A stretch of 64,000 nt of DNA from positions 21,486,922-21,550,921 of the forward strand of contig NC_092678.1 of the NCBI RefSeq assembly GCF_964355755.1. The letters run 5' to 3'. The notes under the pieces were generated by a model, which saw only the letters and a program-made list of their open reading frames with translations, was not told the origin of the DNA and ran no database searches. The stretch's first letter is position 1. Each line of letters starts with the position of its first letter. This DNA comes from Antedon mediterranea. Its lineage: Eukaryota; Echinodermata; Crinoidea; Comatulida; Antedonidae. Shown here piece after piece: positions 2,738-37,893 of this stretch. The position numbers were made by a program, and so were the translations under genes.

Positions 2738-2889
2738 GATTACTTACGTTCTTGCATTGCGCCCAGAAGTCATCAAACCAAAAATCGATTTGCATACATA
2801 AATAATGTACTCCGTTCAGACGGAACAATCCATTTTCTTAAAGTGATGTATATCCCTGGCATGAGTAATCCCTGAAAGTAATGCTTGGT

Positions 2890-4423: not shown

Positions 4424-4451
4424 TCCCACTAGAAACGCAACGCAAGGACGT
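4424..4451. repeat. Right 28-bp target-site duplication of the LINE
   Basis: Exact copy of 2890-2917, shared including the unusual ACTAGAAACGC variant. That favours a target-site duplication over two independent MITE ends. Confidence 0.8.
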
Positions 4452-4462
4452 AACGAAATGTA

Positions 4463-5315: not shown

Positions 5316-5636
5316 GAAATTGAATTGAAATTGAAATATATATTTATACTGGTTAACCTCTTCAGTCAAAGACTGGTCTCCCAGAGGGCCCAGTTGGTGA
5401 TCAGTGGCTGTGATGTACTAATACACCGGGGTAACCCCCTACTCGTCTCGAAAGATGTACTAGGTTCTTTAAAGTGCAAACGAGCTAGATGTGTACACTG
5501 GACCTACGGTTTATAGTCCTTATCCGAGAAGACTCGTTCTACCACCAGAACCATGGAGTAAGTGAGCCTCGAACCCTTGCCGATATTATGGCTACGTAAT
5601 TACGGTTCCACTGGCTCGGCCACTCACTCATCTTTG
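5316..5636 (-). mobile_element. tRNA-derived SINE (Leu/Ser tRNA-like head)
   Basis: On the minus strand the 5' head at about 5630 has an A-box-like TGGCCGAGCCAG (5611-5622) and a B-box-like GGTTCGAGGC (5566-5575), spaced as in a class II tRNA. The body follows and ends in a TTGAA-rich tail near 5316-5340. Part of the body (around 5423-5480) recurs at 45296-45375 in a BDP1 intron, so it is a dispersed family. The insertion has destroyed the end of exon 1 in the SLC17 remnant. Confidence 0.75.
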
Positions 5637-5771
5637 TCACATTTGATTTATGTTCTTCTGTGGTGGTGTTCCATCTTTTTACCATGCTTATAATTGTAAT
5701 GTTGAGGTTCTGGTACAGAAAATACAAATATATGCTAAGTAACACGTTACTGCTGCAAAATATCGTTTCAT

Positions 5772-7035: not shown

Positions 7036-7255
7036 AGATAAATATCCACAGAGAGAAAACATACCGGTACTGTACATAACAAAAACCAATTGATAAATAT
7101 CCACAGAGAGAAAACATACCGGTACTGTACATAACAAAAACCAATTGATAAATATTCACAGAGAGAAAACATACCGGTACTGTACATAACAAAAATAAAT
7201 TGATAAATATCCACAGAGAGAGAACATACCGGTACTGTACATAACAAAAATAAAT
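7036..7255. repeat. 55-bp tandem repeat, four units
   Basis: ACATACCGGTACTGTACAT recurs at 55-bp spacing (TACCGGTAC at about 7062, 7117, 7172, 7227). The equivalent positions downstream of copies 2 and 3 hold only two units (about 20228-20320 and 29519-29608). The repeat lies just downstream of the stop codon of SLC17 copy 1, close to the predicted poly(A) signal. Confidence 0.9.
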
Positions 7256-7260
7256 TTATT
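7255..7260 (-). promoter_or_regulatory. Candidate poly(A) signal, SLC17 copy 1
   Basis: TTTATT on the plus strand, AATAAA on the gene strand, about 195 bases after the stop codon. It is conserved at 20320-20325 and 29609-29614 after the stops of copies 2 and 3. Confidence 0.5.
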
Positions 7261-7453
7261 CTGAGAAATATCAGACTATAAAAACTTTAATTTAATTTAA
7301 ACATTAATCAATTATACTATGGTACAATTTCGAATCTTAACAATGTTAGTGATTGTTCTAATTAAATTAGTAACCGCTTTCATCTTGTATAGTGTCATAA
7401 TACAGCAGAGTGTTTCACGTCGCTAGACGTAATACCGTACGAGAACCTACTTA

Positions 7454-13400: not shown

Positions 13401-16400
13401 GAAAACGTAAATACAAACAAGCAAATATTTCCTGTACTGTATATCTATAAAATGAAAACGTAACCGAAATTTGTGTTGTTTTATAGTTTCAATGTTTATA
13501 AAAATCTCTGAAACCGATCTCATGACATAAATCAGAAAACTTAACTAAACGAGTTGTATCACCCACTTACGTAACAAAAACCAACCACTAATGTAACAAT
13601 CCATTTACCACTAACGTAACAACAGTCAGGGGAAAAATATTAAGAAATCGTAAACATTAAAAAACTCTTTATCATCATATGTTTTGTTTCGAATGTTGGA
13701 AATCTAGATCTCTCTAACGTCAGATCTCTTTAATTGGATAAATAATGGTGTTACACGTATATAATATATAAATTTACGTAAGGGCAAAATTCGGTAAATT
13801 GCGCGCTACTTCTAGAATTTTTATTCGATGGTATAAAGTTGGTTCACTCTTTTGGTACTGATTTTAACCACCTGATGTAACCCTGTTTACTAATTAAGTT
13901 GAGTTAGATAATTAATTATTGACGAATAAAACGAATTTAGGTTCAACGATTTGCCCCAAATAGGGGTGTTTTCCGATCGTGGTATACACTGTCTAATGGA
14001 TGTCCATCTTGAAAAATATCCGCAAAAATGATACGAGGATGCTTCGCATTTACCTATCTCCTCCGATAATTGTTTTTAATAGCTGGCAATTGGTTAAACA
14101 GCTCGAGTATTCCACATTCCACATTTATTTAGTCATCAATGTTTTTTAGAGCTGTATCCGAGTCCGATATCATTAAATACATTAATGACTTAAATGTAAA
14201 TAAGTCAAGTGGTTGTGATGACATAGGTACCATTTATATAAAAAATAACTCAGATATACTGGCTAAACCGTTATCTCATATAATCAATGTATCCCTTCAA
14301 TCGGGTGTATTTCCTTGTCAACTAAAAATTGCTAAAACAATTCCTGTGAATAAAAAAGGAGCAAGGGAGAACATAGAAAATTATAGACCAATATCGATAT
14401 TACCATGTATATCTAAGGTATTTGAAAGGGTCGTATATGACCAAACAATCGCTTTTTTGTGTAAATATGATATGTTACATGAATCTCAATATGGATTCAG
14501 GGCAGGTCATTCAACTAACCACGCCCTCCTACAAGTCCTTGATAAAATAACAACAGCCGTTGACAACAAGCAATTTATGATTGGCGTATTTTTGGATTTA
14601 TCCAAGGCGTTCGATTCGATAGATCATGAATTATTGCTCACAAAATTGCCCCATTATGGAATAAGAGGCGTGGTTCTTGATTGGTACCGAAGCTACCTTA
14701 GAGAAAGACAACAATTCGTACAAATTGGGAAGTGTCAGTCTGTAACCAAAATAATAAAACAAGGCGTTCCACAAGGGTCAATCCTTGGACCCCTGCTGTT
14801 TTTGATTTTCATAAATGACATGTTTTCTGTAAGTAATGTCGTTGATTTAATAATGTTTGCAGATGATACGAATATGTTTTTACAACACAATGATATCGTC
14901 ACTGCCTTTACAATAATGACAAATGAACTAAATAAAATTGAGAAATGGTGTAAAACTAATAGATTAACTATTAATACAACCAAGACTACGTATATGTTAT
15001 TTAGTGGAAAGAATACCAACATTGACACATCCCAATTTGTACTTTCAATAAATAGAGTTTCAATAGACAGAGTACCATATACTAAATTTCTCGGTGTCGT
15101 CATTGATGAGAAACTGAACTTTAGACACCATACAAATGCAGTTTCTTGTAAAGCATCCTCAATAATTGGTGCCATGTGTCATATAAAAAAATTAGTATCT
15201 ACTGAAGTGTTACTTACCATATACAAGACACTTATATTACCAGTGTTGACATATGGTATTATTGTATGGGGTGCGGGGAACAAAGACAATTTGGATCGCC
15301 TTCTATTGCTTCAAAAAAAAGCTCTTAGGATCATTTGTAAGGTAGACTTTCATCATCCCTCTTCTCAGCTCTTTGTGAAAACGGGCACATTTAATATATT
15401 TGATTTGTATAAAAACAGTGTTTTAAATTTTATGTTTAAATACCAAAAAGGACAACTTCCAAAATGTTTTAATTCTTTATTCAGTTTATTTGATAATTAT
15501 CATACATATAACACTCGAAATAAAGACAATTATTGTATAAAATTAAAATCAACTAATATGGGTCAGCAAAGTATAGCATATAGAGGACCTAAGCTATGGA
15601 ATCAACTTATAAGAAATATAAGAGAGAGTGAAAATATATCAATATTTAAAAAACTATTACTAAATAAGTGCATTAATAGTTATAAAGAAACAATATATCT
15701 ATGCGAAAACAACATTTGTAAAATATGTCTAACTTTAACTTAATTAATTACAATTTTGTATATATTCTGAGACTGATGTATATATATATGTTATATTATA
15801 GTACGTTGTATTTTCCTTCATTTATTTACTACATGAAAACATTTTTTGTAATATATTTGTAAATTTATATTTTAAGTTAGGGTGCCACAGATTAAAAGCT
15901 TTGCTTGCTTGTGGTTATCCTGTTTTTCACACTTTATTGTACTTAATCTTTTATTTATATTTTTAAGAATGTTGTGTGAAAAATAAAAGAATCAATCAAT
16001 CAATCAATCAATCAATTACAGTACATCATAATTACAGTACAACTGAGAACAGGGATCCTGCATAAAAAAGCTGTAGCTTCGTTTTTTTGTAGGACCCTTT
16101 TACATAAGAACAAGTATATAGAACTTAAATAAACAAAGGTGTTGTTAATCAGCATATAGTGATAAAAAGTATTTTTTGACCTGTTTTTTTATACATTTAT
16201 TTTGTTTCTTTAAGATAACCGGTTTATTACCACCATTACAAGTGAATTCTTTCCACAATTTTGGTCCATATATGTGTATAAACTGTTGACTGCAAGTTAT
16301 TCTTGTGAAGGGAATTTCGAATTCAGTTTCTGTTCTGAGGTTATGAGTAGGCCTAATACTGTCACAGTAATTAAAAATATTTAAAATGTGATGTGGTAAT

Positions 16401-19400
16401 TCATTGAATTTTACGTTTGCCATAAATTCTATGACGTTTACTTTGTAAATATCATAAACGTTTAATATTTTTAGTTTCTTAAACAGTGGCTCTGAGGCTT
16501 GTCTGGATTTAGAGAAGGTAATGCATTTTACAGCTCTCTTTTGGAGTTTTAGTATTACTTCTAACGTGCTCTTGTATGTATTTCCCCATATTAAGTTACC
16601 ATACTGAAGGTGAGGTAATACTAAGGTGTTATAAAGACTAATACGGACTTTATGAGGAAAGAATTCTCTTACTTTTAAAAGTATACCAATTGCCCTAGAC
16701 ATTTTTTTCCTAATAAGCTGTATGTGATGTTTCCAGTTAAGATTTTCGTTTAAAATTACACCTAGAAATGTCACATTTTCTTTTCTATGTAATAACACAT
16801 TATTCATTTTTATTTTAAACTGGTTTTTGTCAAAGTTCTTTTGGTTAGTTCTAAAAACAACGTAATTAGTTTTGCTGACATTCAGTAACAGCTTATTTGC
16901 TTTAAGCCATACGTTTATTTTTTCTAGTTCAATATTCATAGTATGGTTTAACATTGTAGGGTCATCTCCCCTTGTTATACAAGTTGTGTCGTCAGCAAAA
17001 CTAATTATATCTATTTTACTACTTGCTCGACTTATATCATTGATGTAAATTAAAAACAAAAGTGGTCCTAAAACAGAACCCTGTGGCACCCCTATATTGG
17101 TGTCTTTTAAACATGATGATCTACCGTTGGCATAAACATATTGTTTGCGGCCACTTTAATAGTAGAGCACCATAATGTTGAAGACAAGTCGATTTTCTTT
17201 AAAAAATACTATTTTGATCGATTTAATATACGTTTATACAAACGTATTGCTTGGCGATGAATGGAACATTCCAATCTCTCTTCCAGGTATTTTTACTCGG
17301 GGTACCCAAGTCTAGGACTCACTCATCTTCTCCTCTTCTTCTTCCTCTTCTTCCTCTTCCATCAGGACACTATATATTGAGCCAACTTCCAAAGTCCTAC
17401 TAGTTCTTTACGCGTCGTCTGACGGCTCTGAAACATGGCATGCATATACTAGGGTAATAGGTGAACAAAGCTATAGAGAGAAAATGTTCGTACTTCGAGT
17501 GGCGGATGGAGAAATATGACGTCATAAACATGGTATCAATCGGAAAAAAAGTGCGATTTATAAAAAACTACTCCTCCCTTCTTATAACGTCGTTACAGCT
17601 TCTTTTGCTGTACCCCGAGTATCGCACATTCGTGCTTGTTTTAGAGATAACAGATAATAAGCTAGCGTTTAGTCGCCGTCTATATCTGTACAATCAACTT
17701 TGTTATTGCAGTTCAACCACCACCACCCACACCACCACCCCTCCCCTCAATGTCATGAGTATAGCGTTGTAAAGACAGCACTTCATATTTCAGACACGGA
17801 TAAAATATAAAATTATTATAATATGTAACACTGAAAATGCTATTAAGACCAGTAGAGTATGATTATATATTATATATAATATTCCTTGTTGTAAGAAAAC
17901 AATCCATGTTTGATACGAATTTTATAAATATGAAGATAACAATCCATCATAAAATAATGAGACAGGAATGTCGCACAGGCCGATACCATGCAATACAGAC
18001 AATTCAAGTCTAAAGTTTATTTTTAATTTAAAATTTATTTATTTATTTATTATCTATTTATTCAATTTCTGCCATATACATTACAAAGAAGACAAAATAA
18101 TTATAAAAGGAGGCACGGAAAAACCAAACAAGTGCTAAACACCTATGCTAGTTTGTCAACCCAGAACTCAGAATTCTCATGATGGCAATTATATTTGGCT
18201 ACAGATTACATCGTGTTGGATTGTATTCATTCGCTCTGTGTTCATTTTTACAATTTCCAGTTAATTATTAACACTAAATTTCAAGAAGCCATCTGGGCAA
18301 TTGATAAAGCGTATGTATACATTTACGTAAGGACGTAGGTTTTTATAGGACGTATTTAGAGTTTTATTCTTATTCGACGGACATTTCATCACGCTTAACC
18401 TTTTTTCTCAATAATTTAGAAAGTGGGTTTATACTTTCCGTACTAGATTGTATCAGCAATCAGAAACCATTAGGCCTACTAATTAAGTTGAATTAGATAT
18501 TTATTGATGATTAAAGACAAATTAGTTTAAATGATTTGCCGCGAAGATAGGTGTTTTTCACAACTGTTTTACATTATATAAACACATAATATACAAATAA
18601 ACTTTATTACTGACAGTTGCTTCTCAACGTTTGTATTAATTAATACTGCAATTGCAAAAAAATATAAACGTCGTAGTGGTGTATCGTTACATCCTACTTT
18701 TACTATTTCAATCGAATAAAAAACACACAGGATTTAAAACAAAAGAAGAAATTTCCAACTTAAAGGAAGTTCAAACATATTTCAACATTTTCTACTGTTG
18801 CTACGTTTGTGGTTACATTTTGCTACGTTAGTGATTAATGAAGTTGGTTACGTTAGTGGTTAAACTGTTGTTACGTTAGTGCTTAGATTTGTTACGTTAG
18901 TGGTTAATGAAGTTGGTTACGTTAGTGGTTAAACTGTTGTTACGTTAGTGCTTAGATTTGTTACGTTAGTGGTTAATGAAGTTTGTGACGTAAGTGGTTA
19001 AAATGTTGTTACGGTAGTGGTTAATGAAGTTTGTTACGTTAGTAGTTTAACTGCATGTTGTTACGTTAGTGGTTGATGAAATTGTTACATTAGTGGTTGA
19101 TTTTTGTTACGTTAGTGGTTATATTAATGTTACGTTAGTGGGTGGTGATACACGAGTAATTATTATTTATTTTTTTGTTTCTTAATTTATTCTGACATAA
19201 AATCATAGGATAAAAACACAATAAAGTACCGATACGGTAAACTTATTTCCATTGTGGTCCTAAACAAATATTACAGAATAAACAAGAAAACCACACTTAA
19301 TTAAACATAATAAAACATACAAATGTCATCCATGACAGAATTGAAAGAAGGCCGATGGCTTGAGCTTACCGAGTTTGTTGCACTGGCATTCGAAATCTCA

Positions 19401-19546
19401 TTACATGTATTATTTGATTCCAATTCTTCTGTGGTGGCATTCCATCTTTTTACCATGCTTATTATAGTAATGTTGATGTTCAATCTGGTACAAGTAACAC
19501 AAATACAAGCTACACAACACGATACTGCTACAAAATATCGTTTCAT
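7454..19546 (-). CDS. SLC17-type (sialin-like) anion transporter, array copy 1
   Basis: Nine coding exons in transcript order: 19370-19546, 12991-13224, 12518-12605, 12027-12122, 11720-11844, 8972-9118, 8273-8405, 7716-7954, 7454-7627. All phases close to 470 aa with GT-AG introns. Family marks are an Arg in TM1 (CTRLNINITIISM), DWDDQTQQQILGSFFYGYI, a GGLPGG turn, GGKR, and RVLQGVIEGLTMPA followed by WLVPSERS, which is the RxxxGxxEG signature of SLC17. The C-terminus is a TM12-like segment ending FLIFAKAEQQEW. Known members are vesicular, lysosomal or plasma-membrane anion carriers (sialic acid, glutamate, phosphate, nucleotides); the substrate here cannot be told. A start further upstream is unlikely, because an in-frame stop lies just before the ATG in the near-identical copy 2. 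Intron 1 holds a large element with two LINEs and intron 5 holds a CR1/L2-like LINE, yet no exon is damaged. Confidence 0.85.
9259..11424 (-). mobile_element. CR1/L2-like LINE in intron 5 of SLC17 copy 1
   Basis: Broken minus-strand ORFs encode a CR1/L2-type polymerase. 11447-11085 and 11113-10892 are pre-RT. 10595-10299 has NYRPISNLGFLGK, QSAYKVHHSTETALL and LLDLSAAFDTVDH. 10032-9673 follows the YADD region and includes NLGVEMD. 9666-9184 is the C-terminal region (LFVFKSINGMAPEY, then LWNALPSSIR). Several frameshifts make it non-coding. SLC17 copies 2 and 3 lack it at the matching site (about 22396 and 31790), so it is specific to copy 1. Exact ends are uncertain because the junctions share short sequence with the empty sites. 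Confidence 0.85.
11931..11960. mobile_element. MITE-1 end fragment
   Basis: AAAGCTTTGTTCCCAC followed by GGACGCAACGCAA, in intron 4 of SLC17 copy 1. Copies 2 and 3 retain only the AACGCAAAAGAATA part. Confidence 0.55.
12317..12450. mobile_element. Degenerate MITE-1 in SLC17 intron 3
   Basis: ATTGGTTCCTACTACCTGG is followed by GACGTAAGCGCAACGCAAG and ACAAATCACAAGCGATGG. Counterparts lie at 23251-23372 and 32649-32770, so this insertion predates duplication of the three intact genes. Confidence 0.6.
14111..16016 (+). mobile_element. LINE (CR1/Jockey superfamily), 5'-truncated
   Basis: Homology to copies 2 and 3 stops after CAGCTCGAGTA at 14110 and resumes at AGCACCATAATG near 17166. The insert starts with this plus-strand LINE, which has a long RT ORF (separate entry) and a 3' tail of AATC repeats at about 15993-16016. 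The endonuclease region is missing. Short AGTA direct repeats may flank the whole insert. Confidence 0.9.
14139..15743 (+). CDS. LINE reverse transcriptase, N-truncated, uninterrupted
   Basis: A 534-residue open frame with no stops. RT motifs in order: IENYRPISILPCISK, YGFRAGHSTNHALL, FLDLSKAFDSIDH (first catalytic Asp), QGVPQGSILGPLLFL, FADD (catalytic pair, residues about 242-245), then TKFLGVVID. The C-terminal part (YGIIVWGAG, RNKDNYC, YRGPKLWNQL) is typical of the Jockey/CR1 superfamily. The apurinic endonuclease domain and any ORF1 are absent through 5' truncation, so it is probably not autonomous. The intact frame suggests a fairly recent insertion. It lies antisense to the host SLC17 gene, inside intron 1. 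Confidence 0.85.
   Translation: MFFRAVSESDIIKYINDLNVNKSSGCDDIGTIYIKNNSDILAKPLSHIINVSLQSGVFPCQLKIAKTIPVNKKGARENIENYRPISILPCISKVFERVVYDQTIAFLCKYDMLHESQYGFRAGHSTNHALLQVLDKITTAVDNKQFMIGVFLDLSKAFDSIDHELLLTKLPHYGIRGVVLDWYRSYLRERQQFVQIGKCQSVTKIIKQGVPQGSILGPLLFLIFINDMFSVSNVVDLIMFADDTNMFLQHNDIVTAFTIMTNELNKIEKWCKTNRLTINTTKTTYMLFSGKNTNIDTSQFVLSINRVSIDRVPYTKFLGVVIDEKLNFRHHTNAVSCKASSIIGAMCHIKKLVSTEVLLTIYKTLILPVLTYGIIVWGAGNKDNLDRLLLLQKKALRIICKVDFHHPSSQLFVKTGTFNIFDLYKNSVLNFMFKYQKGQLPKCFNSLFSLFDNYHTYNTRNKDNYCIKLKSTNMGQQSIAYRGPKLWNQLIRNIRESENISIFKKLLLNKCINSYKETIYLCENNICKICLTLT
16017..17160 (-). mobile_element. Second LINE fragment, opposite strand, tail to tail
   Basis: A different LINE of the same superfamily, on the minus strand, 5'-truncated near 17160 within the RT domain. 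Its 3' end meets the AATC tail of the plus-strand LINE at about 16016. Copies 2 and 3 lack both. Confidence 0.85.
16145..17089 (-). CDS. LINE reverse transcriptase, C-terminal part
   Basis: A 314-residue open frame starting within the RT palm: PQGSVLGPLLFLIYINDI, then the catalytic FADD at residues about 28-31, NVSKTNYVVF, FLGVILNENLNWKHH, and a C-terminal YGPKLWKEF box. The fingers and first catalytic Asp are missing because of truncation, so it cannot be active alone. It is no closer than superfamily level to the neighbouring 14139-15743 element. Confidence 0.8.
   Translation of the reverse strand: MPQGSVLGPLLFLIYINDISRASSKIDIISFADDTTCITRGDDPTMLNHTMNIELEKINVWLKANKLLLNVSKTNYVVFRTNQKNFDKNQFKIKMNNVLLHRKENVTFLGVILNENLNWKHHIQLIRKKMSRAIGILLKVREFFPHKVRISLYNTLVLPHLQYGNLIWGNTYKSTLEVILKLQKRAVKCITFSKSRQASEPLFKKLKILNVYDIYKVNVIEFMANVKFNELPHHILNIFNYCDSIRPTHNLRTETEFEIPFTRITCSQQFIHIYGPKLWKEFTCNGGNKPVILKKQNKCIKKQVKKYFLSLYAD
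18055..18185. repeat. Dispersed repeat (TTTCTGCCATA...GTGCTAAACACC)
   Basis: The same unit occurs at 25915-26040, 35318-35445 and, outside the array, at 48535-48640 in an EEFSEC intron. Marks are AATTATAAAAGGAGGCACGG and GTGCTAAACACCTA. It may be the 3' end of a LINE or a SINE. It sits inside the intron-1 element in the SLC17 copies. Confidence 0.65.
18785..19150. repeat. TTACGTTAGTGGTTA minisatellite, right array of copy 1
   Basis: Imperfect repeats of GTTACGTTAGTGGTTA separated by variable linkers (ATGAAGTTG, AACTGTT). Only one 23-bp GTTACGTTAGTGGTTATATTAAT unit is present. It forms the right subterminal array of the intron-1 element. Confidence 0.9.
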
Positions 19547-20319
19547 TTTGAAACTGATTCGTATTTGAATTTAGAAGGAATGCGGATTGGAAGCTATACT
19601 GGTAGTAGTGGCTTGTTTTGTAGCATTTTATTATCTATCAAACGTTAGTCGTTTGTGTTGAAGAAAGAACAATTAGGGACTTTACGACGATTATCTTGTG
19701 TTCGCTAGAGCGTAAAAAGGTCAGTCATTTTAGCCTAAAATTTAGCCAAACATGGAACTAATTGCAACAGAATGTTTGTCAATCAATGCGATGCATTTCT
19801 TTAAGGTCCAAGAACACCATACTAAAAGTCCCAACAAATTCTAATAGGGAAAAGAAATGGCCGCCAACATTCAATAATTTGACATATGTTCGGACTTCTA
19901 AACGGCCTAGGCTATACGAATGCTTTAAAGTTGCAGAGTGGCCCGTGGGCTTTCATTCGAAAAAGGTTACAATTTGATTTATTGCTGTTATTTTGCATAA
20001 TAATTCTATATACTAGCAGGTAGCATACTTTAAATGGCCGCTAAATGTGTTTATTGATCCTATTATCTCATGCTGGTTTCTGGTTTATATTATGACTAAT
20101 GTTTCAATATACCTTTTTAAGTAGAAAGATATTTTGTGTCTTTTTGATAGGTGGTAAAAGCATGTTTAGAATGGTTCTGAATATCATAAATATCGGCCAC
20201 CAGAATTAAATTTAGTTATCCTCCTTAACATACCGGTACTATGTACATAACAAAAATCAATTGATAAATATCCACAGAGAGAGAGAACATACCGGTACTA
20301 TGTACACAACAAAAATCAA

Positions 20320-20325
20320 TTTATT
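20320..20325 (-). promoter_or_regulatory. Candidate poly(A) signal, SLC17 copy 2
   Basis: AATAAA on the gene strand about 250 bases after the stop, at the same place relative to the 55-bp repeats as in copies 1 and 3. Confidence 0.5.
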
Positions 20326-20575
20326 CCGAGAAGTATCAGACTATAAAAACAAATTATTTTACAATTTTGACTCTTTAACAATGATAGTGATTGTTCTAAT
20401 TGAATTAGTCACCGCTTTCATATTGTATAGTGTCTTAAGCTGCCATCAGCAGACGTAATACCACATGTTGTTTAACGTCACTATACGTAATATAGCCGGA
20501 TGTTTCACGTCGATAGACGTGATACAGAGTGTGTTTTCAGGTCGCTAGACGTAATACCGTACGAGAATTTGCTTA

Positions 20576-23500
20576 TTAGCTTGCATTGCCATCCTGTATA
20601 GTGTTGTATGATTTCATCTCTTGTTTTGTAATATTTCCATGTGACCATTCTTGTTGCTCTGCTTTTGCAAATATTAGAAAGAAAATCATTGCAAAAATAT
20701 GGAAAGCAGCAATTATTAAAAACATCAAAGACCACTGATTGGCTGTATTCTGGAAAAAAAACAACAAAAAAACTCAGATTTAAACTCGTAAACAGGACGC
20801 GTGATGGATGGTTGTTTCAATCAAACTTAATACTTACATCTTCTTTGATCAAAGCTCCAAGAATAAGTGGACCAATAAAACCAACCGCAGCGGCTCCGGT
20901 TGTTACCATTCCTACGATTATTTGTGAGTGTTCCTTTGATATCTCCATTATATTTGTAAATGTGCTCGTCGCATATATTCCACCAGAAGCAAACGCCACT
21001 GTAAGAAGTATAACAACGAGTGCATGGTTTTCAAAGAATCTAATACAGCACAGACACAGGGCAGGTATTCCCATATCTACAAAAAAAAGTCATGGAAATT
21101 TGTACCAAAGTTTATAATCATAACATTTCTTCTGAGAATCATAACAGAATGTTAACATTTCTATTTCAAAATATTTCTGTATAATAATAAACAAAATATA
21201 ACGCAAAAGAAGGTGGGAATCTCCAAAAGGCAAGCCTGAGTTGGAGGAGTGTATCAATCAAGGTACGAACATTAAAAAAACAAACCACAAAAATTAACCG
21301 TTTCATCTTACGTACGATTATAAAAATTATAAAGCACTAAAAACGAGTAAATGAATTAAATCATAATTAAAAAAAAAAATTATAACCCTTTAATCTTACG
21401 TAAAATCATAAAAAACTTCCTAGTATTTAGAACATTCATGTATTCCCGCCGAATGATGACATCAGCAACCACACCAGACAGCAGGGTAACTGCAAATTCC
21501 AGAATCGGTGGAATTGATGTTAAAATTGCAATCTAGAAGTACAAAACAAAATGGTATAGTCCTAGGATCTCGCATTCTATGTTTCTGAAAATTAAAATTA
21601 ACTGCACCACCGAAGGATGACGTCAAATAAAAAAGGTCAAAGCGACACCAGAGCTAGTAGACTTGCCCAAATTCTGTATAGTAGTGATTGTCTTGTTTAA
21701 GTCGGCGTTTGGATTTTTGTAAACAGAATACGGAATTGTGAGCTCAAGTATTATACGTCTCTGAAACACCATAGATGCAAAAATATTTGTCTTTTTACAA
21801 ATCTCGGTCTAGAGGTTAGATGTAGAAAGAAGTAAAAAACAAAAGTGACTGCAGATTGCTACTGGAAAATGATATAGGCCTATATTTATAATATATATTT
21901 CCAATGTCTTACAGTTAGAAACCATGAATAAATAAATGGACATAATTATTGTGTAAATGACATAAGTAAGACATTTTATTTTTGTGTTTTCCTAGGCTTT
22001 AGTTTATAAAAGTTGGAACAATAGTTTTTAATCTCCTATGCTGTCGTCAAATCCCTGAAGTTTAAGCAGAAAACGGATAAATGGATGAAAAGAGATTCAC
22101 TTACATTTGTTGTATTAAATCCTAATAGAAATAACAAAATTGGTTCTTCAACAAGTATGAAGTAAAAACTGAAACAGTACGCCGTGTAAGCAAAGATGAG
22201 AGACCACACTGCAGTTGATGTCAACATATCACACCATGGAACCGGTATGTCCTACAAAGAAATACAGTTTGAATTGAATGTTGATCACAGCAAAGCAATC
22301 TAACAACGGTACACTGAGCTCACCTTACCAAGATAGGAACTCGTAACAGTCCTTTGATCTTATGTCTGGCTGCGACAAATACCAACAGTAACTGTACATA
22401 ATTTCCGCGGCGCGCTGTGGAACTGATCGTGTCACAGACACAGATAGCCATTTGATTCCTGAAGTTCAGCATCCTGTTGTTAGATTGCATTAATCACAAC
22501 AGAATAAATGAAGGAGTAAGTCAACAGTGTACTACACCAGTCGCCTTAAGCGATTGGTTCCCACGAAACGACGCAGGCGCATGGGTCGGGCGCTACAATC
22601 GTATTCGGAAAATTCGCGTCCTGATTGGAACTTGCTGTGCGCTTTCAAGAACGAAGCGTTATGACAATTATAACAATGCATCATATTCAGTACCTTATTA
22701 CTTGAGACTTTACCTTATTTTCTTCAAGTTGAAAACTTTTCAAATATTCAACCTCATTCGTTGAAACATAAGGATCGTCAACCGGGTCGTCGTAAATGAA
22801 AGTTTTGAATATTATTGCGAATAAAACACCAACGGTACCTAAAAACAAGAAGAAAATGTTTTTTTAGAAAAAAGAACGCAAAAGAATATACAATGTAATT
22901 GAGGAGACCTCAACCTATAGGGGGGAGGGGGGGGTGTAAGAGAGTAAAAACTTACTGAAAGTGTAGTATGATGTCGGCCATCCACCTAAACGGGAAGAGT
23001 CAGAAATCCACGTAGATAGTGGGTAACAGAAAACTTCAGCTATACACGAGCCTGTAAAGAAAATAAACGGTATATACAGTTTGATTTCATCAGGTTTCGA
23101 TTTAACCTTCGTTCTAAATACCCTTCTGTCCCCCACATCGATCGTTGTTTCAACTTTTAGCTTTTACAATGTCAGTTGCCTCTACAAGGCGGGAAACTGA
23201 AACAGACTTGAATGTGTGAAAAATTAGAGATTTCTTTTTTTTAAACTTTAACATTGGTTCCTACTATCTGGGAATAACGCGATGACGTAAGCGAAACGCA
23301 ATTAATTTGACAAATCACAAGCGATGGATTATTAATGCTGTCAACTCACGTCTCACGTGTGTTACGTATACGTCCTTTTTAGGCAGGATGATTTCCTCAC
23401 TCTATACTCTAATAATCTAGGCCATAGCTTTCTGTTACGCCATGAGTCGAACTTACCAGAAAATGCAATAGATACTAATGTACTCCGTTCAGACGGAACA

Positions 23501-26500: not shown

Positions 26501-27924
26501 ATACTGTAATTACAAAAAATATAAACGTCGTAGTGGTGTATCGTTTCATCCTACTTTACTATTTCAATCGACTAAAAAACACACAGGATTAAAACTGAGA
26601 GATTTCCAACTTAAAGGAAGTTCAAACATATCTCAACATTTTCTACTGTTGCTACGTTTGTGGTTACATTTTGCTACGTTAGTGATTAATGAAGTTGGTT
26701 ACGTTAGTGGTTAAACTGTTGTTACGTTAGTGGTTAATGAAGTTTGTGACGTAAGTGGTTAAACTGTTGTTACGTTAGTGGTTACATTTTGTTACGGTAG
26801 TGGTTAATGAAGTTGGTTACGTTAGTGGTTAAACTGTTGTTACGTTAGTGCTTAGATTTGTTACGTTAGTGGTTAATGAAGTTTGTGACGTAAGTGGTTA
26901 AACTGTTGTTACGTTAGTGGTTAATGAAGTTTGTTACGTTAGTGTTTAGATTTGTTACGTTAGTGGGTAATGAAGTTTGTGACGTAAGTGGTTAAACTGT
27001 TGTTACGGTAGTGGTTAATGAAGTTTGTCACGTTAGTAGTTTAACTGTTGTTACGTTAGTGGTTAATGAAATTGTTACATTAGTGGTTGATTTTTGTTAC
27101 GTTAGTGGTTATATTAATGTTACGTTAGTGGTTATATTAATGTTACGTTAGTGGTTATATTAATGTTACGTTAGTGGTTATATTAATGTTACGTTAGTGG
27201 TTATATTAATGTTACGTTAGTGGTTATATTAATGTTACGTTAGTGGTTATATTAATGTTACGTTAGTGGTTATATTAATGTTACGTTAGTGGTTATATTA
27301 ATGTTACGTTAGTGGTTATATTAATGTTACGTTAGTGGTTATATTAATGTTACGTTAGTGGTTATATTAATGTTACGTTAGTGGTTATATTAATGTTACG
27401 TTAGTGGTTATATTAATGTTACGTTAGTGGTTATATTAATGTTACGTTAGTGGTTATATTAATGTTACGTTAGTGGTTATATTAATGTTACGTTAGTGGT
27501 TATATTAATGTTACGTTAGTGGGTGGTGATACACGAGTAATCATTATTTATTTTTTTATTTCTTTGTTCTGACATAAAATCAATAGGATAAAAACACAAT
27601 AAAGTACCGATACGGCAAACTTATTTCCATTGTGGTCCTAAACAAATATTACAGAATAAACAAGAAAATCACACTTAATTAAACATAATAAAACATACAA
27701 ATGTCATCCATGACAGAATTGAAAGAAGGCCGATGGCTTGAGCTTACCGAGTTTGTTGCACTGGCATTCGAAATCTCATTACATGTATTATTTGATTCCA
27801 ATTCTTCTGTGGTGGCATTCCATCTTTTTACCATGCTTATTATAGTAATGTTGATGTTCAATCTGGTACAAGTAACACAAATACAAGCTACACAACACGA
27901 TACTGCTACAAAATATCGTTTCAT
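20576..27924 (-). CDS. SLC17-type (sialin-like) anion transporter, array copy 2
   Basis: Nine coding exons: 27748-27924, 23926-24159, 23457-23544, 22956-23051, 22714-22838, 22105-22251, 21400-21532, 20838-21076, 20576-20749. The frame closes at 470 aa and introns are GT-AG. An in-frame TAA 24 bases upstream of the ATG supports the start unless an unseen acceptor lies between. Domain marks match copy 1: TM1 Arg, DWDDQTQQQILGS, GGKR, RVLQGFIE joined to GIGMPA, and PSERST. Exon 1 is translationally identical to copy 1, while exons 2-4 are almost identical to copy 3, a mosaic pattern. A Gly found in copies 1 and 3 is Arg here (residue about 346, CCIRFF), inside a predicted membrane helix. Intron 1 is mostly the inverted-array element. 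The substrate is unknown. Confidence 0.85.
24470..27532. mobile_element. Intron-1 inverted-array element, copy 2 (uninterrupted, 3.06 kb)
   Basis: It begins GTATCACCCACTAACGTAAG and ends GTTACGTTAGTGGGTGGTGATAC. ACGAGT direct repeats lie at 24463-24468 and 27533-27538. The left subterminal array is short (24476-24540). The right array is long (26640-27526). The middle holds CT-rich and CCACC microsatellites and the dispersed GTGCTAAACACC repeat, with no long ORF. It is the best copy for defining the family because it has no later insertion. Confidence 0.72.
27096..27526. repeat. 23-bp satellite, 18 homogeneous units
   Basis: GTTACGTTAGTGGTTATATT (plus AAT) repeats at exact 23-bp steps starting at 27096. 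The last full unit starts at 27487 and a partial unit at 27510. I see no differences between units. The same position in copies 1 and 3 has a single unit, so this is a local expansion. Confidence 0.95.
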
Positions 27925-27981
27925 TTTGAAACTAATTGGTATTTGAATTTAGAAGGGAATGTGAATTGGAAGCTATACTTA

Positions 27982-28892
27982 TTAACACTTTGACTGCACA
28001 ACGCTTGACTGCCAAACACACGAAGATCTTCGTGTTTCGCGTTTTTTTACGAAATCCGGTAGATAGGTTAATTATTGGTATATACTATAAATATGGACAC
28101 TATATTCGGTCTCGACCGTTAATATTTTACTTTTTGAAAGTAACTAATCTGGTTACGAACGATTGTCAAAATGGTACCTGTCGAAATAACATACACCGCG
28201 CATCACAGCGCAATATGAAGTCTTTAATTTTATTATTGTATGTATACCCTAATTGTTTTGGTGTTTCACTGTAAGTGGCCGAGTTTAACGCAACAGACTT
28301 GTTTAGAAATGGTATGAACATTATCATCAGTTTACTAGCTAGGCTCTAGTACGTGTACTATAGAGACTAGCCTAGGCCTAGTCGTAAAACGGCTCCGGGC
28401 CAAATTTAGGCCTAGAGTTAACTAGGCCTGGTGTCTTTACTATGTGGATTTTGGCGAAACATTGATGTAAGATTATGATTTATAAAATGTAATACATTTT
28501 TCGATAGTGATAACTTGTTTTTATAGGCCTATCGGTGCCGTGTAACGGTGTAAGTAACTTTTTCGCTGTTTGTTGATCTCACCGGGCGATATTTTCATAT
28601 TGTGATGTCTTGCACAAAATCGCGAATATCTCGACTTTCTTGCGCGAAACTACGAAAAACTCAAAAAGTGGGTTACTTTCATTTTACTATTACGATTTAC
28701 ATATTGCGATTTGAAAATCGTTCTTGGTACCATTGTAAATCTAAAATCTTTATGATTATTTTAGTCTTAATTACATGTAAATCAGATCAGATACATAGTA
28801 TCAATCAGCATTAATAAAAACATCGAATTGAGCTAAAAACGCTGGCGGTGGCAGTTTCTAACTGGAAAAACCTCTGGCAGTCAAAGTGTTTA
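27982..28892. mobile_element. piggyBac-like non-autonomous element
   Basis: The left end TTAACACTTTGACTGC and right end GCAGTCAAAGTGTTTA form a 13-bp inverted terminal repeat (ACACTTTGACTGC), with a second TTGACTGCC just inside the left end. TTAA at the left end and TTTAG at the right suggest a decayed TTAA target site. The roughly 0.9-kb insert is absent from the equivalent sites upstream of SLC17 copies 1 and 3. The interior has TAGGCCTA-rich sequence and no convincing transposase. Confidence 0.7.
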
Positions 28893-29518
28893 GTTTAGTG
28901 GTGGTAGTGGCTTGTTTTGTAGCCTTTTATTATCTATCAAACGTAGTCGTTTGTGTTGAAGAAAGAACAATTAGGGACTTTACGACGATTATCTTGTGTT
29001 CGCTAGAGCGTAAAAAGGTCAGTCATTTTAGCCTAAAATTTAGCCAAACATGGAACTAATTGCAACAGAATGTTTGTCAATCAATGCGATGCATTTCTTT
29101 AAGGTCCAAGAACACCATACTAAAAGTCCCAACAAATTCTAATAGGGAACCAACATTCAATAATTTGACATTGAATTTTTGAATTGTTGACTTCTAAACG
29201 GCATATACGAATGCTTTAAAGTTGCAGAGTGGCCCGTGGGCTTTCATTCGAAAAAGGTTACAATTTGATTTATTGCTGTTATTTTGCATAATAATTCTAT
29301 ATACTAGCAAGTAGCATACTTTAAATGGCCGCTAAATGTGTTTATTGATCCTATTATCTCATGCTGGTTTCTGGTTTATATTATGACTAATGTTTCAATA
29401 TACCTTTTTAAGTAGAAAGATATTTTGTGTCTTTTTGATAGGTGGTACAAGCATGTTTAGAATGGTTCTGAATATCATAAATATCGGCCACCAGAATTAA
29501 ATTTAGTTATCCTCCTTA
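28893..29518. other. Intergenic spacer, SLC17 copy 2 to copy 3
   Basis: Homologous to 19600-20225 and 5860-6480. No coding sequence is supported. It presumably holds the promoter of copy 2; no TATA box is assigned. Confidence 0.6.
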
Positions 29519-29608
29519 ACATACCGGTACTATGTACACAACAAAAACCAATTGATAAATATCCAGAGAGAGAGAACATACCGGTACTATGTACATAACA
29601 AAAATCAA

Positions 29609-29614
29609 TTTATT
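29609..29614 (-). promoter_or_regulatory. Candidate poly(A) signal, SLC17 copy 3
   Basis: AATAAA on the gene strand about 255 bases after the stop, at the same place relative to the 55-bp repeat as in the other copies. Confidence 0.5.
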
Positions 29615-29869
29615 CCGAGAATTATCAGACTATAAAAACAAATTATTTTACATGGTACAATTTTGACTCTTTAACAATGATAGTGATTGTTCTAATTTAA
29701 TTAGTCACCGCTTTCATCTTGTATAGTGTCTTAAGCTGCCATCAGCAGACGTAATACCACATGTTGTTTAACGTCACTATACGTAATATAGCAGGATGTT
29801 TCACGTCGATAGACGTGATACAGAGTGTTTTTACGTCGCTAGACGTAATACCGTACGAGAATTTGCTTG

Positions 29870-32800
29870 TTAGCTTGCATTGCCATCCTGTATAGTGTTG
29901 TATGATTTCATCTCTTGTTTTGTAATATTTCCATGTGACCATTCTTGTTGCTCTGCTTTTGCAAATATTAAAAAGAAAATCATTGCAAAAATATGGAAAG
30001 CAGCAATTATTCTAAACATCAAAGACCACTGATTGGCTGTATTCTGGAAAAAAAACAAACAAAAAAACTCAGATTTAAACTCGTAAACAGGACGCGTGAT
30101 GGATGGTTGTTTCAATCAAACTTAATACTTACATCTTCTTTGATCAAAGCTCCAAGAATAAGTGGACCAATAAAACCAACCGCAGCGGCTCCAGTTGTCA
30201 CCATTCCTACGATTATTTGTGAGTGTTCCTTTGATATCTCCATTATATTTGTAAATGTGCTCGTCGCATATATTCCACCGGAAGCAAACGCCACTGTAAG
30301 AAGTATAACAACGAGTGCATGGTTTTCAAAGAATCCAATACAGCACAGACACAGGGCAGGTATTCCCATATCTACAAAAAAAGTCAAGGAAATTCGTACC
30401 AAAGTTTATAATACAAACCTATCAAAATAAACATTTATTTCCTTCAAAAGCAGAAACAAAAACAATGAAACGTAAACAGATTTAAAGAAAATGTACCGTA
30501 CAAATCATAAAATTTCTTCTGAGAATCATAACAGAATGTTAACATTTCTATTTCAAAATATTTCTGTATAATAAAAAAAATATAACGCAAAAGAAGGTGG
30601 GAATCTCCAAAAGGCAAGCCTGAGTTGGAGGAGTGTATCAATCAAGATACAAACATTAAATAAACAAACCACAAAAATTAACCGTTTCATCTTACGTACG
30701 ATTATAAAAATTATAAAGCACTAAAAACGAGTAAATGAATTAAATCATAATTTAAAAAAAAAAAAGTTATAACCCTTTAATCTTACGTAAAATCATAAAA
30801 AACTTCCTAGTATTTAGAACATTCATGTATTCCCGCCGAATGATGACATCAGCAACCACACCAGACAGCAGGGTAACTGCAAATTCCAGAATCGGTGGAA
30901 TTGATGTTAAAATTGCAATCTAGAAGTACAAAACAAAATGGTATAGTCCTATAAGGATGCATTCTATGTTTCTGAAAATTAAAATTAACTGCACCACCGA
31001 AGGATGACGTCAACTAAAAAAGGTCAAAGCGACACCAGAGCTAGTAGACTTGCCCAAATTCTGTATAGTAGTGATTGTCTTGTTTAAGTCGGCGTTTGGA
31101 TTTTTGTAAACAGAATACGGAATTGTGAGCTCAAGTATTATACGTCTCTGAAACACCATAGATGCAAAAATATTTGTCTTTTTACAAATCTCGGTCTAGA
31201 GGTAGATGTAGAAAGAAGTAAAAAACAAAAGTGACTGCAGATTGCTACTGGAAAATGGGCCTATATTTATATATATTTCCTATGTCTTACAGTTATAAAC
31301 TATGAATAAATAAATGGACATAATTATTGTGTAAATGACATAAGTAAGACATTTTATTTTTGTGCTTTCCTACGTTTTAGTTTATAAAAGTTGGAACAAT
31401 AGTTTTTAATCTCCTATGCTGTCGACAAATCCCTGAAGTTTAAGCAGAAAGCGGATAAATGGATAAAAAGAGATTCACTTACATTTGTTGTATTAAATCC
31501 TAATAGAAATAACAAAATTGGTTCTTCAACAAGTATGAAGTAAAAACTGAAACAGTACGCCGTGTAAGCAAAGATGAGAGACCACACTGCAGTTGATGTC
31601 AACATATCACACCATGGAACCGGTATGTCCTACAAAGAAATACAGTTTGAATTTAATGTTGATCACAGCAAAGCAATCTAACAACGGTACACTGAGCTCA
31701 CCTTACAAAGATAGGAACTCGCAACAGTCCTTTGATCTTATGTCTGGCTGCGACAAATACCAACAGTAACTGTACATAATTTCCGCGGCGCGCTGTGTCT
31801 GTTGAGGGGCGTGGAACAGATCGTGTCGCAGCCACAGATAGCCATTTGATTCCTGAAGTGCAGCATCCTGTTGTTAGATTGCATTAATCACAACAGAATA
31901 AATGAAGGAGTAAGTCAACAGTGTACTACACCAGTCGCCTTAAGAGATTGGTTCCCACGAAACGACGCAGGCGCATGGGTCGGGCGCTACAATCGTATTC
32001 GGAAAATTCGCGTCCTGATTGGAACTTGCTGTGCGCTTTCAAGAACGAAGCGTTACGACAATTATAACAATGCATCATATTCAGTACCTTATTACTTGAG
32101 ACTTTACCTTATTTTCTTCAAGTTGAAAACTTTTCAAATATTCAACCTCATTCGTTGAAACATAAGGATCGTCAACCGGGTCGTCGTAAATGAAAGTTTT
32201 GAATATTATTGCGAATAAAACACCAACGGTACCTAAAAACAAGAAGAAAATGTTTTTTTAGAAAAAAGAACGCAAAAGAATATACAATGTAATTGAGGAG
32301 ACCTCAACCTATATGGGGGAGGGGGGGGGGGGTGTAAGAGAGTAAAAACTTACTGAAAGTGTAGTATGATGTCGGCCATCCACCTAAACGGGAAGAGTCA
32401 GAAATCCACGTAGATAGTGGGTAACAGAAAACTTCAGCTATACACGAGCCTGTAAAGAAAGTAAACGGTATATACAGTTTGATTTCATCAGGTTTCGATT
32501 TAACCTTCGTTCTAAATACCCTTCTGTCCCCCACATCGATCGTTGTTTCAACTTTTAGCTTTTACAATGTCAGTTGCCTCTACAAGGCGGGAAACTGAAA
32601 CAGATTTGAATGTGTGAAAAATTAGAGATTTCTTTTTTTTAAACTTTAACATTGGTTCCTACTATCTGGGAATAACGCGATGACGTAAGCGAAACGCAAT
32701 TAATTTGACAAATCACAAGCGATGGATTATTAATGCTGTCAACTCACGTCTCACGTGTGTTACGTATACGTCCTTTTTAGGCAGGATGATTTCCTCACTC

Positions 32801-35800
32801 TATACTCTAATAATCTAGGCCATAGCTTTCTGTTACGCCATGAGTCGAACTTACCAGAAAATGCAATAGATACTAATGTACTCCGTTCAGACGGAACAAT
32901 CCATTTTCGTAAAGTGATGTATATCGCTGGCATGCCTATTCCCTGAAAGTAAAATGTCTAAAATGATAACGTTTTCAGAAACGTATTACCGTTACGCAAC
33001 ACATCATGTAGTCATTTTATGGTGTTTTACGTTTTGGGGGTGTTAGTAACGTACGTGTTACGCACTATCGCCATTGTCGTCTGAAACGTTATTGTTATAA
33101 CGGTATAGTGTTGTTACGGTAAATAATGCGTAAACGTATGGTACGCAAGACACACATCACATTATTTTCATTGTTTATTGGGTGTGTTGCGTAATGCTGT
33201 TTGACGCACTACAGCCATTGTTTTCTGAAAGGGTTTTGTGTGTGAGCGTGTAAATAGTGGGTAAACGTTACCGTCCTTGTGAAAATGCTGGAGTACAAAA
33301 GTGCAAATATCTTAGTTACTAACTTCTATGAAGCCTTGTAAAACCCGTACGATGGTCAGGAGACTGGTCCCAACGTCTGCAGCCCACGGGATCATGGCAC
33401 ACAACAAACTTTCCAACAGAAGAACTATTAAAATTGATCGTTTTCCGCCAATTTTACCAGCAAACCAACCGCCCGGCAGTCCGCCTATTATATAGCCGTA
33501 AAAAATCGATCCAAGTATTTGCTGTTGTGTTTGGTCGTCCCAATCATAGGTTGGTATCTGGAAAACGAAATCGTAAACACAGAATATCTAATCACTATAA
33601 TGTGTAGAACACGCGATTAGATTTATTATTTCCATTTTATCTAAATCAAAACCGACCATAACTCAGAAAACTAAACTTGTTTGCAAGGACCGAAATTGTG
33701 TTCTAGAGAACGAAAACGTAAATACAAATAAGCAAATATTAACTGTATATCTATAAAATGAAAACGTAACCGAAATTTGTGTTGTTTTAGTTGAGTTTCA
33801 ATGTTTATAAATATCTCTGAAACCGATCTCATGACATAACTCAGAAAACTAAACGAATTAACGAGTTGTATCACCCACTAACGTAAGAAAAACCAACCAC
33901 TAATGTAACAATCCATTTACCACTAACGTAACAAGTTTAACAGGGGAAAATATTAAGAAATCGTAAACATTAAAAACTCTTTATCATCATATGTTTTGAT
34001 TCGAATGTTGGAAATCTAGGAATTGAGTTTATTCATGTTTGTTTATTCGTCAGCTCTTTAACTGGATAATTAATAGTGTTACACCTATATAATATATACA
34101 TTTACGTAAGGGCAAAATTCGGTAAATCGCGCGTTACTTCTAGAATTTTTACTCGATGGTATAAAGTTGGTTCACTCTTTTGGTACTGATTTTAACCACC
34201 TGATGTAACCCTGTTTACTAATTAAGTTGAGTTAGATAATTAATTATTGACGAATAAAACGAATTTAGGTTCAACGATTTGCCCCAAATAGGGGTGTTTT
34301 CCGATCGTGGTATACACTGTCTAATGGATGTCCATCTTGAAAAATACCCGCCAAAATGATACGAGGATCGATGCTTCGCATTTACCTATCTCCTCCGATA
34401 ATTGTTTTTAATAGCTGGCAATTGGTTAAACAGCTCGAGTACAGCACCATAATGTTGAAGACAAGTCGATTTTTAAAAAAAAAAATACTATAAAATTGGT
34501 GACTGCAGAAGTGAGATATCGGTATTTTTACTCGGGGTACCCAAGTCTAGGACTCACTCATCTTCTCCTCCTCCTCTTCTTCCTCTTCTTCCTCTTCCAT
34601 CAGGACACTATATATTGAGCCAACTTCTAAGTCCTACTAGTTCTTTACGCGTCGTCTGACGGCTCTGAAACATGGCATGCATATACTAAGGTAGGTGAAC
34701 AAAGCTATAGAGAGAAAATGTTCGTACTTCGAGTGGCGGATGGAGAATTATGACGTCATAAACCTGGTATCAATCGAAAAAAAGTGCGATTTATAAAGAA
34801 CTACTTCTCCTTTCTTATAACGTCATTACAGCTTCTTTTGCTGTACCCCCCGAGTATCGCACATGCGTGGTTGTTGTAGAGATAACAGATAATAAGCTAG
34901 CGTTTTAGTCGCCGTCTATATCTGTACAATCAGCTTTGTTATTGCAGTTCAACCACCACCACCCACACCACCACCCTTCCCCTCAATGTCATGAGTATAG
35001 CGTTGTAAAGACAGCACTTCTTATTTCAATCAGACACGGATAAAATATAAAATTATTATAATATGTAACACTGAAAATGCTATTAAGACCAGTAGAGTAT
35101 GAGTATATATTATATATAATATTCCTTAATTGCAAGACGTTGTTGTAAGAAAACAATCCATGTTTGATACGAATTTTATAAATATGAAGATAGCAATCCA
35201 TCATAAAAATAATGAGACAGGAATGTGGCACAGGCCGATACCATGCAATACAGACAATTCAAGTCTAAAGTTTTATTTTAATTTTAAAATTTATTTATTT
35301 ATTTTTTATCTATTTATTCAATTTCTGCCATATACATTACAAAGAAGACAAAATAATTATAAAAGGAGGCACGGAAAAACCAAACAGGTGCTAAACACCT
35401 ATGCTAGTTTGTCAACCCAGAACTCAGAATTCTCATGATGGCAATTATATTTGGCTACAGATTACATCGTGTTTGACTATATTCATTCGCTCTGTGTTCA
35501 TTTTTACAATTTCCAGTTAATTATTAAAACTAAATTTCAAGAAGCCATCTGGGCAATTGAAAGAGCGTATGTATACATTTACGTAAGGACGTAGGTTTTT
35601 ATAGGACGTATTTAGAGTTTTGTTCTTATTCGACGGACATTTCATCGCGCTTAACCTTTTTTCTCAATAATTTAGAAAGTGGGTTTATACTTTCCGTACT
35701 AAATCGTATCAGCAATCAGAAACCATTAGGCCTACTAATTAAGTTGAATTAGATATTTATTGATGATTAAAAGAGAATTTAGTTTAAATGATTTTCCTCG

Positions 35801-37893
35801 AAGATAGGTGTTTTTCACAACTGTTTTACATTATATAAACACATAATATACAAATAAACTTTATTACTGACAGTTGCTTCTCAACGTTTGTATTAATTAA
35901 TACTGTAATTACAAAAAAATATAAACGTCGTAGCGGTGTATCGTTTCATCCTACTTTACTATTTCAATCGACTAAAAAACACACAGGATTTCCAACTTAA
36001 AGGAAGTTCAAACATATCTCAACATTTTCTACTGTTGCTACGTTAGTGGTTAATGAAGTTGGTTACGTTAGTGGTTAACTGTTGGTTACATGTTGTTACG
36101 TTAGTGGTTAATGAAGTTGGTTACGTTAGTGGTTAAACTGTTGTTACGTTAGTGCTTAGATTTGTTACGTTAGTGATTAATGAAGTTTGTGACGTAAGTG
36201 GTTAACCTGTTGTTACGGTAGTGGTTAATGAAGTTTGTTACTGAATACTGAAATGCTTTATTTGTCCATCATCATAATAAAATAACAACAGAAATTCTTT
36301 TTGAAGATTGACAATTATTAGTAAAATAATAAATAGATATACAATATAATATATTATGTACACACACATAATTGCACCAAAAAAAATATAAGTTATGAAA
36401 CACGGTGTAAAAATGACAAGGATTAAAATTGAATAGGATTCAGGAGATTAAAATAGTTTAAAACAGCTTTAAAAGGATTAAAACAGCTTTAAAAGGATTC
36501 AAACCATTAGAATGTTCCTAAAACCTTACAATTTATAAATTGCTAAAATTTCAAATAGGCTAAAATGTTAAAAACGTTTAAAAATATTAAAAATATAAAA
36601 ACATTTTATAAAGTTTCATTGTTTACATAGTCTTGTATAACATAACATTTTATCGATGGTGACGTGACGTGAATTAATAGCATTTGCAACAAAGGCATAT
36701 CATATCTCGATCTGTTTGTCTTAGTTATTGGAACATGTATTCTACCATGCGTTTGATAATAAAGTATTTGCTAAGGGGATGATCAACATCCTTAATTATT
36801 TTATGAGCTGCCTTCACTATCTAATCTATCTATATTTCATCTAACTGCACCAACGGATCTTTAACAATATATTCAGCTTTCTTTGTAATGCGATTCAATT
36901 TCTTTTTTTCTTTTTTTTTAAATATTTTCATAATTGCATATCAAACAGAAAGACATAATACTTTGGATCATGGTGGTATAAAACAATTTTAACAGGGAGC
37001 TATCAATACTAAAGCTTGGTTCCCACTAGAACGTAACGCAAGGACGTAAACGCAACGCAAGCGTTTTAACAAATGACAAGCGAAGTTATAGACAGTTAGA
37101 AATCACAAGCGAATAAGCCATCGCTTGTGATTGGTCAATTCATTTGCGTTGCGTTACGTCCTTGCGTTGCGTCGCTAGTGGGAACCACGTACGCTTTAGT
37201 GATTTCATTTTGCGAAGTATAAACATTCTTTGATTGGCTCTTTTAACTATTCTATTTGTATTGGTTTCCCACGACAGTTTGTGGTCCATGACAAAACCTA
37301 AGTATTTATGTTCTTCTACTCTATCTAATTCGTTACCATCAATCAGAACTGGAATAATAGGATCTTTCTTTACTCTAAAGTCTAGGACCATCTCCTTAGT
37401 TTTACCAACATTTAACTTTAAATTATTCAATTTGCTCCAATTTACAAAATCTGATATCAATTTACGGTAGTCATATTCATTATCATGCTTATCACCTAAA
37501 ATGTATCCTGTGATAACAGTATCGTCTGCATATTTAATCACAGAACATGACTACGTTAGTAGTTTAACTGTTGTTACGTTAGTGGTTAATGAAATTGTTA
37601 CATTAGTGGTTGATTTTTGTTACGTTAGTGGTTATAGTAATGTTACGTTAGTGGGTGGTGATACACGAGTAATCATCCATGACAGAATTGAAAGAAGGCC
37701 GATGGCTGGAGCTTACCGAGTTTATTGCACTGGCATTTGGAATCTCATTACATGTATTATTTGATTTCTGTTCCTCTGTGGTGGCATTCCATCTTTTTAC
37801 CATGCTTATTATAGTAATGTTGATGTTCAATCTGATACAGGTAAAACAAATACAAGCTATACAACACGATACTGCTACAAAATATCGTTTCAT
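29870..37893 (-). CDS. SLC17-type (sialin-like) anion transporter, array copy 3
   Basis: Nine coding exons: 37717-37893, 33324-33557, 32855-32942, 32354-32449, 32108-32232, 31483-31629, 30787-30919, 30133-30371, 29870-30043. Exon lengths equal those of copies 1 and 2, and the frame closes at 470 aa. Exon 1 differs from copies 1 and 2 at several residues (for example CFTCIRLN), whereas exons 2-4 and most of intron 1 are nearly base-identical to copy 2 at an offset of about 9398 bases. All SLC17 motifs are kept: TM1 Arg, GGLPGGWFAGK, GGKR, RVLQGFIE with GIGMPA, PSERST. Intron 1 carries the inverted-array element, broken by a Rex1-like LINE that is itself broken by a MITE. It is the outermost, 5'-most gene of the array. 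Confidence 0.85.
36241..37550 (-). mobile_element. Rex1-like LINE fragment with nested MITE
   Basis: On the minus strand, RT sequence starts at IKYADDTVITG (37541 leftwards), then LNVGKTKEMVLDF and HKYLGFVMDHKLSWETN up to RKMKSL. It is broken by MITE-1 at 37010-37198 and resumes as LLKLFYTTMIQSIMSF and KLNRITKKAEYIVKDP. These are typical of the C-terminal half of Rex1/Babar-type LINEs. It is 5'-truncated inside the RT domain. It sits within the minisatellite of the intron-1 element, which is continuous in copies 1 and 2. Confidence 0.8.
37010..37198. mobile_element. MITE-1, well preserved, inside a LINE ORF
   Basis: CTAAAGCTTGGTTCCCACTAG opens the element, and the inverted GTGGGAACC with a distal CTTTAG closes it. 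The interior has TTGCGTTACGTCCTTGCGTTGC arms and CAATCACAAGCGAATAAG. It interrupts the Rex1-like RT frame cleanly, so it is younger than that LINE. I could not settle the target duplication. Confidence 0.85.

Follow-up and report, generated by a model that had tools for sequence, protein, structure and literature searches.

A probable non-autonomous, foldback-like TIR transposon in tandem SLC17-like genes of Antedon mediterranea and the growth of its subterminal repeats into minisatellites

A block of DNA carried by three SLC17-like genes of the crinoid Antedon mediterranea is, with a probability that we put at about 0.92, a non-autonomous cut-and-paste transposon with TGT...ACA ends that inserted once into an SLC17 gene, was multiplied by tandem duplication, and underwent expansion of its repeat arrays. 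We analyzed a 64,000-nucleotide stretch (the window) together with the source genome, which comprises 354 Mb and 11 chromosome-sized contigs. The three paralogous gene copies in the window are designated copies 1, 2, and 3, and a remnant is designated copy 0. The element is best filed as a non-autonomous, foldback-like terminal inverted repeat (TIR) DNA transposon family, a kind of element that is already familiar.

All three copies showed ACGAGT and the end sequences exactly at the sites given in the initial annotation (13549/19152, 24463/27533, and 33861/37665). Read symmetrically as TGT...ACA, the element starts with TGTATCACC and finishes with GGTGATACA, and its 20-bp end, TGTATCACCCACTAACGTAA, is inverted at both termini. 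Once the ends are read in this way, the target-site duplication becomes the 5-bp CGAGT that flanks all three copies, in place of the 6- to 7-bp duplication (ACGAGT) first proposed. The features of the window copies are collected in Table 1.

Table 1. Element copies, their flanking duplications, and their internal features, in window positions
Feature	Copy	Start	End	Strand	Remark
Left target-site duplication	1	13550	13554	+	CGAGT
Element	1	13555	19152	+	TGT...ACA, with nested insertions
Nested repeat	1	about 13755	about 18717		
Insertion within nested repeat	1	14110	17285	.	3.2 kb; two non-LTR retrotransposon pieces; copy 1 only
Right subterminal array	1	18794	19141	-	degenerate 23- to 25-bp units, TTACGTTAGTGG core
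Right target-site duplication	1	19153	19157	+	CGAGT
Left target-site duplication	2	24464	24468	+	CGAGT
Element	2	24469	27533	+	TGT...ACA
Left arm	2	24469	24693	+	inverted terminus plus CCACTAA(C/T)GTAAC motifs
Nested repeat	2	24694	26574	+	unrelated, highly abundant; outside element proper
Right subterminal minisatellite	2	26649	27522	-	period 23, 37.7 copies
Right target-site duplication	2	27534	27538	+	CGAGT
Left target-site duplication	3	33862	33866	+	CGAGT
Element	3	33867	37665	+	
Nested repeat	3	about 34092	about 35974		
Right array, inner piece	3	36031	36241	-	interrupted by later insertion of about 1.3 kb
Right array, outer piece	3	37552	37654	-	
Right target-site duplication	3	37666	37670	+	CGAGT

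The host genes lie on the minus strand. In copy 1, the block separates a putative first exon (within 19301-19570), which had no Pfam match, from a major facilitator exon (within 12841-13254), which matched Pfam MFS_1. First-exon status and the SLC17 name come from reading the sequence, and the placement is consistent with intron 1 of an SLC17-like gene. Across copies 1 to 3, the left flanks are 90 to 99.9% identical and the right flanks 93 to 97% identical, and the right end of each copy bears a private 3-bp GGT duplication (GTGGGTGGTGATACA), of which a genome search found no further full match anywhere. Being private to the three right ends, this duplication supports a single ancestral insertion; together with the flank homology, it reduces the initial observation of one site occupied in three paralogs to one insertion copied. 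We conclude that the three SLC17 copies represent one insertion multiplied by tandem gene duplication. Copy 0 indeed lacks the block, with only a short stretch from 5190 to 5641; as an empty site it serves only to that extent, its sequence being too diverged for the target to be recognized at the base level.

That the three window copies stem from gene duplication is also what would be expected of an immobile, minisatellite-bearing intron segment amplified by SLC17 gene duplication only. Such an account is refuted, because dozens of dispersed copies have distinct flanks and several have 5-bp duplications of their own. Far from being confined to the SLC17 array, TGTATCACCCACTAACGTAA ends were found at dozens of loci spread across at least 10 of the 11 chromosome-sized contigs, with 20 exact matches in the genome and 29 with one mismatch; at up to three mismatches there were 141 matches, versus 19 for a reversed control pattern. 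When the initial 238 bp of copy 2 served as the query, matches were obtained on ten chromosome-sized contigs besides C9. The two-ended copies of this family (family A) that we read were between 51 bp and about 4 kb long and differed in their flanks.

Among 14 two-ended family-A copies, 6 had exact 5-bp duplications (CGAGT in the window, TCAGC at L011, TCCCT at L014, ACTGT at L016, TCCCC at L018, and GGGGA at L042), 3 had one mismatch, and 5 had two or more; the chance of an exact 5-bp duplication is about 0.0016 per copy. When families A and B (the latter described below) were taken together, 5 bp was the sole exact duplication length above 3 bp, occurring in 14 of the 24 two-ended copies. In addition, 65 distinct family-A end flanks revealed a palindromic target, S-T-N-[GGNCC]-N-A-S, centered on the duplication, with C at position -1 in 37 of 65 (p about 3e-13) and G at position -5 in 30 of 65 (p about 2e-8). 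Since this palindrome is independent of how ends are paired, it supports the view that the cut is staggered by 5 bp. The dispersed copies, their independent 5-bp duplications, and the palindromic target preference demonstrate that the element has been mobile, and they uphold, along with the inverted ends, the initial annotation's reading of a non-autonomous DNA transposon and its prediction that other loci would share the same termini and have their own duplications. Many family-A ends lack a recognizable partner, and the duplication is imperfect or missing in 8 of the 14 two-ended copies; family A is therefore old or often rearranged. Two family-A copies with exact 5-bp duplications, at L018 (216-275, 60 bp) and L042 (51 bp), extend barely beyond both ends.

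Searches with variant patterns uncovered a more abundant sister family, family B, with ends TGTTGAACCCACAAATGTGAAAAC (TGTTGAACCCAC...). At up to two mismatches in 27 bases, 146 family-B ends were found and none with the control. Among 100 listed family-B ends there were 34 convergent pairs, the lengths of which cluster at 0.8 to 0.93 and 1.9 to 2.5 kb. The 5-bp duplication was exact in 8 of 10 family-B copies read, with a single mismatch in one. The core ACCCAC(T/A)AA(C/T)GT(A/G)A is common to the two families, as are the TGT..ACA ends, the 5-bp duplications, and a spacing that alternates between 18 and 22 to 23 bp in the subterminal arrays. When the core TGT-NNN-ACCCAC was used to look for a further sister family, only families A and B were recovered.

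Family B has the long inverted tandem-repeat arms of foldback architecture; in four measured copies they span 333 to 1,014 bp and contain 41-bp minisatellites (18 + 23) at both ends; family-A arms are shorter and vary by copy. In Drosophila, the Foldback (FB) and Galileo elements have inverted arms that consist of short tandem repeats, the number of which differs from copy to copy; their duplications are about 9 and 7 bp, and their superfamilies are Mutator and P. Families A and B resemble FB and Galileo in their copy-variable short-tandem-repeat arms and differ from them in duplication length. The closest architectural analogue is Tetris/DAIBAM of Drosophila virilis and D. americana, which is likewise non-autonomous, has inverted arms with expanding tandem repeats, includes a small derivative with common ends, and has no autonomous partner found; unlike the present families, it makes 8- to 10-bp duplications, has been suggested to belong to Mutator, and has other ends and another repeat unit (PMC4079207). 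Most foldbacks are considered to be of the Mutator type, and such an assignment would explain the long inverted arms, internal tandem repeats, and non-coding middle, all of which are present in Tetris, yet with no exact duplication longer than 5 bp here against 8 to 10 bp in Tetris (PMC4079207), it is highly improbable. Families A and B are two related families whose 5-bp duplication departs from the usual assignment of foldbacks to Mutator.

The block in the window is a nested composite and not the single 3-kb element that it first seemed to be, about 1.9 kb of the interior being an unrelated repeat. Without this repeat, the copy-2 element consists of a left arm of about 225 bp and a right arm of about 960 bp. 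A genome search with the interior of copy 2 as the query yielded 4,475 first-look candidates, with matches beginning at query position 95 and ending at 1975; copies elsewhere start with TCTATATATAAATTTACGTAAGGGC, and the start is constant. Its 5' TC start suggests that it may be Helitron-like. Since all three window copies contain the repeat, it entered before the gene duplication. The retrotransposon insertion within it in copy 1 contains Pfam RVT_1 matches at 14133-15740 (+) and 16148-17155 (-) (1e-34 and 1.5e-14) and is absent from copy 2 (between 25040 and 25118). A self-complementary repeat, about 180 bp long, was observed at 37010-37189 and 4461-4640 of the window and at L013, L019, L021, L038, L048, and L060; one copy lies within the insertion that splits the right array of copy 3. 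At L010, a Ty3/gypsy LTR element (1215-8825) is situated within a family-A copy.

Arrays of the CCACTAACGTAAC motif had been described as pointing inward from both ends. The orientation and the arrays themselves were confirmed, but the left array is short, holding about 3 motifs within some 75 bp, and only the right one is a true minisatellite, measuring 348 bp in copy 1 and 874 bp in copy 2 and split by an insertion in copy 3. The left arm of copy 2 matches the right array in inverted orientation (92% over 61 bp), and its sequence was also found at other loci. The minisatellite of copy 2 includes 18 near-identical units of the 23-bp GTTACGTTAGTGGTTATATTAAT, whereas copies 1 and 3 have one unit each, and for this reason the expansion is most simply placed after the gene duplication. 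This comparison of three paralogous copies bears out the earlier suggestion that subterminal repeats had grown into minisatellites, and the window copies record both nesting and, after the duplication, array expansion. Other loci have other unit lengths (40 bp x 35 at L011; 19 bp x 13 plus 25 bp x 9 at L009; 39 bp x 7 at L021). The ancestral state was likely a degenerate series of motifs, with homogeneous minisatellites arising locally and repeatedly. One insertion copied by gene duplication thereby offers a clear case of minisatellite birth from transposon subterminal repeats.

In our reading, the element entered intron 1 of an SLC17-like (major facilitator) ancestor gene in a single event, making the 5-bp CGAGT duplication, and tandem gene duplication then yielded three element copies. 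Other elements later inserted into the interior, and head-to-tail motifs expanded to minisatellites in individual copies, probably by slippage, repair, or unequal exchange. The TTACGTTAGTGG motifs beside the ends most likely bind a transposase that is provided in trans and would be of the DDE/integrase type.

No transposase was found between family-A or family-B ends in the loci read, and the caution of the initial annotation in leaving the superfamily unassigned was justified. No transposase domain was seen in the two-ended family-A copies read. The short copies are too small for a transposase, and the longer copies examined in both families are lengthened by insertion of other repeats; the 6.1- and 6.3-kb family-B interiors held nested repeats or no long open reading frame (ORF), and no transposase. 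A Pfam search with 10 ORFs chosen near ends returned nothing relevant. The ORFs of L009 and L010, where array pairs are 7 to 9 kb apart, were rejected as transposase candidates and belong to a host gene, which we take to be Na+/H+ exchanger-like, and to the Ty3/gypsy insertion. A literature search for the end sequences matched only papers on unrelated subjects. It is conceivable, though rather unlikely, that families A (TGTATCACCC) and B (TGTTGAACCC) are moved by an undescribed animal transposase lineage that would make a 5-bp-staggered cut, bind arrays of the shared core, and in family A select palindromic STN-GGNCC-NAS targets, with array growth as a by-product of the multiplicity of binding sites. 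The missing transposase, if found, would place the foldback lineage to which these families belong.

Within the preferred reading of a non-autonomous TGT...ACA transposon, a superfamily-level alternative is a retroviral-integrase-like lineage of the Ginger2/TDD type with an rve-type transposase, a possibility that we regard as doubtful. Ginger2/TDD elements also have TGT..ACA ends, with inverted repeats of 50 to 180 bp and 4- to 5-bp duplications (PMC2836005), and the TGTTG of family B fits their TGTNR, whereas family A starts with TGTAT. Duplications of 5 bp, as here, are made by TDD-4/TDD-5, and Ginger2 makes 4 or 5 bp (PMC2836005, PMC10045372). Animal Ginger2 elements, however, make 4-bp duplications at AT-rich RTATAY targets and encode an integrase (PMC2836005), while the target here is GC-rich GGNCC and, apart from that of the gypsy insertion at L010, no integrase was found in the loci read. 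When the gypsy integrase of L010 was used as a query, no similar integrase appeared in any other locus read, although a distant one could be missed by this search.

Transib/RAG transposition produces 5-bp, GC-rich duplications, resembling the 5-bp duplication and GC-rich target seen here. A Transib/RAG-like transposon is nonetheless very unlikely, for the ends here are TG..CA, whereas most members of the clade including Transib end in CA..TG (PMC12730594). A RAG1 Pfam search gave no match, but its controls were equally silent, which makes the search uninformative.

Derivation from hAT5, a hAT lineage with 5-bp duplications (PMC12730594), is unlikely as well, albeit less so. The duplication length matches, and the genome contains a hAT-like family with 5-bp duplications, but the ends of that family are CAGGGGCGCAGCCA, unlike TGTATCACC. 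A search for the hAT C-terminal domain gave 59 matches, and of the 30 loci fetched and read, none had the ends of families A and B or a genuine array. L083, a hAT locus with many motif matches, proved to contain a different minisatellite. The hAT-like family, seen at L077, L085, L086, and L091, is non-autonomous, about 1.3 kb long, and has 14-bp ends; it is flanked by the duplications GGGGT, CATTT, CTCAC, and TTATT and lies near a hAT dimerization-domain remnant. The window also contains three unrelated tandem arrays, at 41716-41882, 56278-56500, and 61468-61881, with units of 30, 69, and 43 bp, respectively.
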